A DNA stretch of 64,000 nucleotides, taken from the NCBI GenBank assembly GCA_928724745.1, contig CAKMXJ010000003.1:248001-312000 (forward strand), read 5' to 3'. The notes beneath the pieces are model-generated. The model worked only from the letters and a program-made list of their open reading frames with translations. It was not told the DNA's origin and ran no database searches. Both the position numbers and the translations under genes were made by a program. Position 1 is the first letter of the stretch; every line of letters begins with the position of its first letter. Positions 6,118 through 8,349 of the stretch are shown piece by piece. Source of the DNA: Anthracocystis setariae (Eukaryota > Basidiomycota > Ustilaginomycetes > Ustilaginales > Ustilaginaceae).

Positions 6118-8349
6118 ATGGGACAAGCGACAAGCACTTTCGTAGATCACGCTGCGGCGACGGTCGAGATCCCTGGTAAGGGTAGACTTGTTGGCAGAGC
6201 AGCCAAAGACCTTTCTACCGGGCAAGTGAAAGCGCATCGCTTTGCTGCGATCCCATATGCCCAGCCACCCGTTGGCGAGCTCCGCTGGAAACGACCGCGA
6301 CCCCTTCCATCCTCCTTCCGTTTCGATAGCGATGGGAGAACTTACGGTGACTTTGCCAGCATCTGCCCTCAACCTACCAACTACGCCCTTACAAACGGCG
6401 TCACCCTTCCTAGACAAGTCACCTTCCGCGAGAGCGAAGATTGTCTCTACCTCAACATTTGGTGTCCCGTAGATGCCGATGGATCACGACCGTCTCGCAA
6501 ACTACCCGTCCTCTTCTTCATTCATGGAGGCTGGCTTCAGATCGGCAACGCTCACGGCATAGGTAAGGACCCAACGGACCTCATTCATGGCATGAGTCTC
6601 GAGGCCATTGTAGTCGAACCGGCATATCGACTCAACGCTTTTGGCTTTTTTGCGCACGATGAGCTTCGTAAAGAGGATCCAGACCACTTGACAGGGAACT
6701 ATGGCTTTTGGGACCAGCGTGCGGCCCTCGAATGGGTCTACCACAATATCGAGCATTTTGGAGGTGACCGGACCAACATCACTGTCGGTGGCCTCTCGGC
6801 TGGCGCACACAGTACGCACTCGCAAATCATGCACGAGTTCGACCTCTCTGCTCGAGATTCTACCTACAAACCCATCATCCGTCGTGCCTTCCTCCAGTCC
6901 AATTCGGCGATCTGGCCCTCCAAGCCAGTCCAGGAGGTTGCTGGGCAACTCGATGAACTGTGTGCACTGCTTGGTGTACCGCCACATCTCAGTGACAGCG
7001 AAAAGATCGCAAAGCTTCGGGACGTCGATGACATTACTCTCGTCAGAGTCCTTGCCAACATGGACATGCACACTTTCAGAGCTACTCGAGACACTGAGCC
7101 GGTTGCATTTGTCAGGCCAGACTGGACGAAGGCGATGATGGACGGAAGATTCGCCAAGTGGTGTCAGCAGCATGGCCTTGGTTTCGTCATTGGAGAATGT
7201 GCGGATGAGGAGTGGGTCTATCGATACATCAACACGCCTACGGACAGGACATCGCTGATCACGCAGGTGCACAACTACTATACCATGCCTTTGGTGGAAA
7301 GAATGCTCCCATACTATGGCATCACCGTATCTCATGGCTCCCAAGGTGCTCAGCGACAAGACCGAAACAACGCTGGAACCTTCACCCCGACAGCCGGTGA
7401 GCCCAGCCTATACACAGCTCTGGGTGTCAGCACATCAGCCACACCCGCCGAAATCCGAGCCGCTTACCTTGCCCAAGTTCGTCGTCATCACCCAGACAAA
7501 CTACAGCAGCAGCAAGCACTTACGCCGGATGCGAGCGCCATCGCCGACTCGCTATCGCAATCCGACGATCTCATCCGCCAACTCAACGAAGCATACAAGA
7601 CTCTGATTGACGATGCGCTGCGCTCTCAGTACGATGAAAATCTCACTGCGTCACGCGCCGCCTCTTCGTCTTCGATGCGACCGCGCATCGCTGCCACGGT
7701 GGACTTTGAGTCGTTCCAGCCGATTGAAATCGAGGATGCATCGGCTCCGATGGCGTTCAAGTATTCGTGTCGGTGCGGGTCGGCGTACGTGCTGTCGGAA
7801 GACCAGATCCAGGATCGCGTCGAGGTCGTCGGATGCGATGGGTGCTCCGAGAACATCCGCGTTCGGTACGGAGAGGAAGAGCCGGGCAGGGAGGAGGTGG
7901 GGGAGATGTTTGGTGCAGTGTGTTCGGACTCGCAGGTGTATATTGCCGAACGAATGCTGGTGACCGATCTGGTTCGGGGTGGGTTGGATGTTGAGCGCGT
8001 TTTGAGGTACCGCATTGACTACCGCGCCAAGGTTCTGGATGAGGTGCTACCGGCGTATGGGGGGGTGAGTCATTCGTTTGACGACTTCGTCTGGTGGTAT
8101 TCGGCGCTGGAGGAGGGGGAGGAACGCGAGAGGGTGGGCAGGTGGTTGTTGCCGTACAAGGCGTTTATTCACGGTGAGGATGTGCATAGGCAGTGGTACG
8201 AAGGGGGGAAGGCAGATGTCAGGTCGATCAGGGTGTTGGAGAGGGATGGGAGTATAAGCGTTGGGGTGGATCAGAGGTGGGTGGAGAAGGAGGAGCTGAT
8301 CGAGGGAATGTGCAGGATTCGCAAGCAATTGGTGGAGGAGGTCCTTTGA
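6118..8349 (+). CDS. Carboxylesterase (type B) with inserted J domain and CSL zinc finger (Dph4-like)
   Basis: One uninterrupted 743-residue frame carries two protein families. Residues about 15-410 are the N-terminal part of a type-B carboxylesterase (alpha/beta hydrolase): EDCLYLNIW, oxyanion-hole HGG at 136-138, nucleophile Ser227 in GGLSAGA, and acid Glu364 in CADEEW. Residues about 430-506 form a J domain with HPD at 458-460. Residues about 543-590 form a CSL/DPH-type zinc finger with Cys551, 553, 573 and 576. J plus CSL is the architecture of Dph4 (DNAJC24), a co-chaperone of diphthamide synthesis on eEF2. From Phe598 the esterase resumes (FGAVCSDSQVYIAERM) and supplies His652 in GVSHSFD. 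The triad therefore straddles the insertion, and the two esterase parts together have a normal family length. The frame extends upstream to a TTG; the ATG at 6118 is the first ATG. An alternative is a nested DPH4 unit removed by splicing. GT at 7397 and AG ending at 7918 would excise an in-frame 522 nt, but that acceptor lacks a pyrimidine tract. Confidence 0.85.
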   Translation: MGQATSTFVDHAAATVEIPGKGRLVGRAAKDLSTGQVKAHRFAAIPYAQPPVGELRWKRPRPLPSSFRFDSDGRTYGDFASICPQPTNYALTNGVTLPRQVTFRESEDCLYLNIWCPVDADGSRPSRKLPVLFFIHGGWLQIGNAHGIGKDPTDLIHGMSLEAIVVEPAYRLNAFGFFAHDELRKEDPDHLTGNYGFWDQRAALEWVYHNIEHFGGDRTNITVGGLSAGAHSTHSQIMHEFDLSARDSTYKPIIRRAFLQSNSAIWPSKPVQEVAGQLDELCALLGVPPHLSDSEKIAKLRDVDDITLVRVLANMDMHTFRATRDTEPVAFVRPDWTKAMMDGRFAKWCQQHGLGFVIGECADEEWVYRYINTPTDRTSLITQVHNYYTMPLVERMLPYYGITVSHGSQGAQRQDRNNAGTFTPTAGEPSLYTALGVSTSATPAEIRAAYLAQVRRHHPDKLQQQQALTPDASAIADSLSQSDDLIRQLNEAYKTLIDDALRSQYDENLTASRAASSSSMRPRIAATVDFESFQPIEIEDASAPMAFKYSCRCGSAYVLSEDQIQDRVEVVGCDGCSENIRVRYGEEEPGREEVGEMFGAVCSDSQVYIAERMLVTDLVRGGLDVERVLRYRIDYRAKVLDEVLPAYGGVSHSFDDFVWWYSALEEGEERERVGRWLLPYKAFIHGEDVHRQWYEGGKADVRSIRVLERDGSISVGVDQRWVEKEELIEGMCRIRKQLVEEVL

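Follow-up and report, generated by a model that had tools for sequence, protein, structure and literature searches.

A Dph4-type J/CSL module nested within a predicted cytosolic carboxylesterase in Anthracocystis setariae and related smut fungi

A single open reading frame in a 64,000-nucleotide stretch of the smut fungus Anthracocystis setariae (contig CAKMXJ010000003.1, positions 248,001 to 312,000; hereafter the window) encodes a type-B carboxylesterase that is interrupted by a J domain and a CSL zinc finger of the Dph4 type, an arrangement which, judged from sequence, is a genuine nested insertion and is conserved among relatives. The frame (6118..8349, + strand) opens with ATG and runs for 743 codons plus a stop with zero internal stops; stops in the five other frames across the same interval number 8, 15, 25, 27 and 35. 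Three Pfam families were matched above their gathering cut-offs, in the order COesterase (PF00135, residues 14-314, E 1.3e-59), DnaJ (PF00226, residues 431-506, E 2.4e-11) and CSL zinc finger (PF05207, residues 545-584, E 1.6e-12). The first-pass annotation of the window had placed the J/CSL module within a complete carboxylesterase and not at its end; this was borne out by the Pfam order, alignment and predicted fold, and all ten key residues to which it had pointed (Ser227, Glu364, His458-Pro459-Asp460, Cys551/553/573/576 and His652) were confirmed. We consider it likely that DPH4 was ancestrally inserted in frame into a cytosolic type-B carboxylesterase and that the product has remained a single translated protein with Dph4 function. 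The layout of the frame is as follows.

6118..8349, + strand: whole frame, 743 codons plus stop, a single frame without internal stop
6118..6138, + strand: N-terminal MGQATST, predicted N-myristoylation-type motif (pattern match)
6118..7326, + strand: esterase part 1, residues 1-403, with Ser227 at 6796-6798 and Glu364 at 7207-7209 (PF00135)
7327..7404, + strand: linker 1, residues 404-429, 16-38 residues in relatives (low identity, low predicted confidence)
7405..7638, + strand: J domain, residues 430-507, with HPD at 7489-7497 (PF00226)
7639..7749, + strand: J-to-CSL segment, residues 508-544 (alignment with the free Dph4 P0121)
7750..7869, + strand: CSL zinc finger, residues 545-584, with Cys551/553/573/576 (PF05207)
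7870..7908, + strand: linker 2, residues 585-597, 8-36 residues in relatives (alignment of relatives)
7909..8346, + strand: esterase part 2, residues 598-743, with the catalytic His652 at 8071-8073 (homology to P0018, predicted fold)
7397..7918, + strand: in-frame GT..AG stretch, judged not an intron (splice-signal scan, aligned codons)

A search with the whole-frame protein gave 3250 matches, the best 120 of which underlie what follows. The full order of esterase, J domain, CSL finger and esterase was found in 16 of the best 17 (P0001-P0014, P0016 and P0017), and these 16 complete relatives together with the frame make up the 17 rows on which the counts below are based, the truncated P0015 and the fragment P0122 having been dropped. 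Nine carriers are named, Sporisorium scitamineum, S. reilianum, Pseudozyma hubeiensis, Ustilago trichophora, U. bromivora, Kalmanozyma brasiliensis, Melanopsichium pennsylvanicum, Testicularia cyperi and Pseudozyma flocculosa, and all seven looked up in the taxonomy (S. reilianum and U. trichophora lay outside this check) belong to the Ustilaginales. Ser227, Glu364, His652, the HPD motif and the four cysteines are kept in 17 of 17 rows. Mean identity over the 136 pairs is 0.69 in esterase part 1, 0.64 in the J domain, 0.63 in the CSL finger and 0.56 in esterase part 2, with 0.47 in the middle segment between J domain and CSL finger, 0.13 in linker 1 and 0.34 in linker 2; by this measure both halves of the protein are conserved and under constraint, the linkers hardly. 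The insert is flanked by two conserved residues, Tyr400 and Phe598, which are spaced by 168-234 residues in the 17 fused rows and by 14-19 in six aligned uninterrupted ones. Matches 18 to 120 are esterases of 446-610 residues that reach at most 46% identity and for which neither a J nor a CSL domain is listed, those named coming from Exobasidium (class Exobasidiomycetes), Sympodiomycopsis, Phenoliferia, Microstroma and many ascomycetes.

The earlier view that no such esterase fusion is established agrees with the open-licence literature searched, where none of the papers listed deals with this fusion as judged by title and the start of the abstract; in sequence databases, however, the architecture is already present, and eight rows among the listed matches carry a UniRef label starting "Diphthamide biosynth". 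Database labels (acetylcholinesterase-related, or Dph4) each cover only half of the protein.

As expected of a type-B carboxylesterase, the frame has both a PF00135 match, spanning part 1 only, and the catalytic Ser/Glu/His. Esterase part 2 on its own gave zero Pfam matches, and the best 60 of 162 PDB matches to the frame all cover part 1 only. It was assigned to the esterase because of a translated search with the uninterrupted esterase P0018 (44% identity over P0018 residues 411-560), the alignment and the predicted fold. In the AlphaFold2 model (predicted local distance difference test, pLDDT, 90.6), a structure prediction in the hydrolase context of the kind called for by the first-pass annotation, a complete alpha/beta-hydrolase fold closes around the insert; the input alignment of 72 hand-picked rows contained both separate families, and the model is thus not independent of the domain assignment. 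Residues 410-425 of linker 1 have pLDDT below 50. The rows shown by Foldseek with VIA-align for this model are esterases, part 2 being matched jointly with part 1, so that the search bears on the esterase fold and not on the module. An alignment-free model of the free Dph4 P0126 was of poor quality (pLDDT 37.9) and was discarded. Given the conserved Ser/Glu/His triad, esterase activity is expected, and the esterase half probably hydrolyses some cytosolic ester.

The module has a J domain with HPD and, C-terminal to it, a CSL finger with four cysteines, both of which are expected of Dph4, and a PRI..TVDFESF stretch between the two is shared with free Dph4 in the alignment with P0121. Dph4 is favoured over other J or CSL proteins, since among 68 PDB sequences the top match is 2L6L, with both domains covered. 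A protein search with the module gave 1315 matches, and the top ones among the best 120 used are J+CSL proteins, including those of Malassezia and Vanrija labelled Diphthamide biosynthesis protein 4. Dph4 is usually, though not by definition, a small free protein; here it is nested in a 743-residue frame.

Six-frame, exon-wise searches of the 21.5 Mb genome, in which only the best candidates were scored, gave two matches to the CSL family, one at the fused locus and one on contig C7 that reads by eye as DPH3. The J-domain family gave 27 matches, and none apart from that at the fused locus coincides with a CSL match. With the free Dph4 P0126 as query, residues 7-163 matched at the fused locus (E 4.1e-51), whereas five further places gave weak matches to one domain or part of it. 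The check for a second DPH4 proposed at the outset thus returned none in these six-frame searches, which a DPH4 split by introns could escape. Similarly, no uninterrupted close relative of the esterase was found in the six-frame search: P0018 matched the fused locus with E 1.2e-102 and the runner-up with 3.0e-24, and the 11 genome matches of the wider esterase family, some whole and uninterrupted, are none of them near to it.

The search for the diphthamide pathway, which beside DPH3 covered DPH1/DPH2, DPH6, DPH7 and the target eEF2, showed two loci of the DPH1/DPH2 family, one of the DPH6 family and an eEF2 with the diphthamide motif DVTLHTDAIHRGGGQ. A first DPH7 pattern gave 13 genome places, none reading as DPH7; two further patterns, which we take to be motifs of that family, coincide at C2:682936-683190 in a 482-residue open frame that reads by eye as DPH7, a WD protein. 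The idea that the esterase replaces the Dph7 methylesterase lost its force once this gene had been found. If the organism makes diphthamide, the nested module would be the only Dph4 candidate seen. As a separate observation, EFG_IV matches at C32:773801-774112 and C9:25300-25611 are nearly equal and lie in 567-residue frames, so that either eEF2 is present twice or a stretch of contig is duplicated.

The N-terminus fits a pattern which we take to be that of N-myristoylation. Such a start was found in 16 of 18 rows (the frame and P0001-P0017), and of 99 further esterases listed with an initial Met, 70 have it too; because it is common among uninterrupted esterases it appears to be a trait of the esterase group and not of the fusion. 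A strongly hydrophobic N-terminus is absent from all fused rows (highest value 1.42, by a simple hydropathy measure uncalibrated on known signal peptides). The protein is predicted to be cytosolic, perhaps tethered to membranes by N-myristoylation, and a cytosolic location would put it in the same compartment as eEF2.

It is proposed that, in an ancestor of the Ustilaginales, DPH4 was inserted in frame into a type-B carboxylesterase, in a loop at its surface that joins the strand with the catalytic acid to the one with the histidine, and that both parts have been kept since as a single translated protein. The J domain would recruit cytosolic Hsp70, the CSL finger would bind metal, and the module, like free Dph4, would assist the Dph1-Dph2 step with which diphthamide synthesis on eEF2 begins; the esterase half would act on a cytosolic ester, and N-myristoylation may hold the protein at membranes. 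That the frame is translated as one chain, acts both as Dph4 and as an esterase and is myristoylated is what we infer. The review PMC8153317, which bears on the iron or electron-transfer role that the first-pass annotation had suggested for the module, describes the exact function of Dph4 as still elusive, with iron binding reported for human Dph4 and not definite for the yeast protein, and electron-carrier activity reported for the human protein and not clearly seen in yeast; according to PMC5473770, a yeast jjj3 deletion regains diphthamide synthesis when it is given a plant Jjj3 ortholog.

Several observations weigh against this account, in addition to the silence of Pfam on esterase part 2, the input of the structural model and the reach of the six-frame searches given above. 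P0015 stops within the J domain, its frame breaking right after the HP of HPD, P0122 is a fragment, and P0003 lacks Gly2. The history of the module is also less simple than that of its host. The fused esterases form one clade against six uninterrupted esterases (support 99/98). In the module trees, built with hand-picked free Dph4 rows (23 in the first, 14 in the second; 148 or 144 columns), the free Dph4 proteins P0121, P0126 and P0127 join 15 fused modules (97/87 in the first tree, 100/98 in the second), the fused modules P0016 and P0017 fall outside this group, and the 340-residue P0131 enters the group of 15 in the first tree. Holding all fused modules together was rejected (approximately unbiased test, p 0.0131 and 0.0147), so that a single insertion needs later release, duplication or transfer. 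P0126 and P0127 begin with a Met immediately ahead of the J domain and finish directly behind the CSL finger. Given the single insertion point and the single esterase clade, one insertion followed by release or duplication appears to be the simplest account, provisionally, because the branches of P0016 and P0017 are long and the columns few; two insertions at one site or a long-branch misplacement are possible alternatives.

Four observations on related proteins stand apart from this question. P0131 combines J+CSL with PF25459 and may be another Dph4 fusion or a joined gene model; the Tulasnella protein P0155, with J+CSL, PF00179 and a ubc12 label, may likewise be a Dph4 fusion or joined gene models. 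P0160 of Thecaphora frezii is a 168-residue model whose J domain is, by eye, much like that of P0016 and which has no CSL finger, being free, degenerate or mispredicted. The free Dph4 models P0130 and P0132 have an additional intron-like stretch right before HHPDK that is absent there in the fused proteins.

Other readings of the locus were weighed against the kept insertion. An assembly join or misprediction, for which the broken models P0015 and P0122 could be cited, has practically no probability in our view: 16 complete homologs, mostly from separate contigs and sources, have the same architecture with the insert at the same point, and on these and their alignment a join was rejected. Very unlikely, too, is an exitron, that is, an optional in-frame intron at 7397-7918 whose removal would leave a plain esterase and whose retention would give the Dph4-containing form, as the first-pass annotation had offered. 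The GT..AG pair spans 522 bases, is divisible by three and has a GTGAGC donor, and extra in-frame acceptors lie at 7873 and 7879. However, CTNAY, which we take to be the branch-point motif, was found in none of the 60-base stretches upstream of ten candidate AGs, and the pyrimidine share of the 15 bases before these AGs is 0.07 to 0.60, under half in eight of ten and 0.40 before the 7918 acceptor. The aligned codons rule out the donor in 10 of 17 rows and the acceptor in 9 of 17 (that of the frame included), a comparison of one site only inferred from protein rows, in which linker 1 aligns poorly and the donor count is rough. Among the best 120 of 3250 matches, moreover, uninterrupted esterases reach at most 46% identity. 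A conserved donor, branch point and acceptor were not found in the sequence, and splicing-out of the module, unsupported by these weak signals and an unconserved site, was rejected.

It is rather unlikely that one gene gives two products, with a free Dph4 made from an internal promoter or start codon or released by proteases that cut in the linkers. Sequence varies in both linkers, the model gives linker 1 low confidence, 16 of 17 rows have a Met directly before LPxY, and relatives have free Dph4 of the same type; yet this Met sits in a predicted esterase helix (390-400), the linkers have no conserved residue run in the alignment (no dedicated cleavage-site search was made), and the lack of an in-frame stop between the CSL finger and 8347 means that an internal start would yield Dph4 with an esterase tail. 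A coupling of the two halves within the diphthamide pathway, with the esterase removing an ester from an intermediate or regulating the module, is likewise unlikely: both halves are under constraint and the pathway has a methyl-ester removal step, assigned to Dph7 (PMC8153317), but the genome has a DPH7-like gene, and the listed esterase relatives outside the group are without the module. Beyond the kept insertion itself, the nesting could be functional and more than merely tolerated: the Dph4 module might be controlled by the substrate or membrane state of a myristoylated esterase, and a lipid or ester signal would then tune eEF2 diphthamide and translation in smut fungi, a speculation which we hold to be unlikely.

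If kept as proposed, a housekeeping co-chaperone module has been relocated into the middle of an unrelated enzyme, retained across a fungal order, and is the sole copy found in the genome. Such a protein would be a natural experiment on whether Dph4 can function with both ends tethered, and bears on what Dph4 does when diphthamide synthesis begins and on a possible link of diphthamide to membranes or metabolism. The GC content at third codon positions along the frame, 0.59 in esterase part 1 and 0.72 in part 2, was of no help in interpreting the locus. Elsewhere in the window, a 400-residue open frame at 3904-5106 (- strand) lies antisense to an isocitrate-dehydrogenase-like gene at 3934-5094 (+ strand), named by eye.

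Among known systems, Dph4/Jjj3/DNAJC24 (PDB 2L6L) resembles the encoded protein in having a J domain with HPD followed by a four-cysteine CSL finger; unlike the module described here, which is nested inside an enzyme, the free proteins are small (P0126, 164 residues). DPH3 on contig C7 shares the CSL finger with it, but is a separate gene and has no J domain. The fungal type-B carboxylesterases of the MGxxxS-start group, represented by P0018 of Exobasidium, share the Ser/Glu/His triad, HGG and the MGxxxS start at 43% identity and differ in having no insert.
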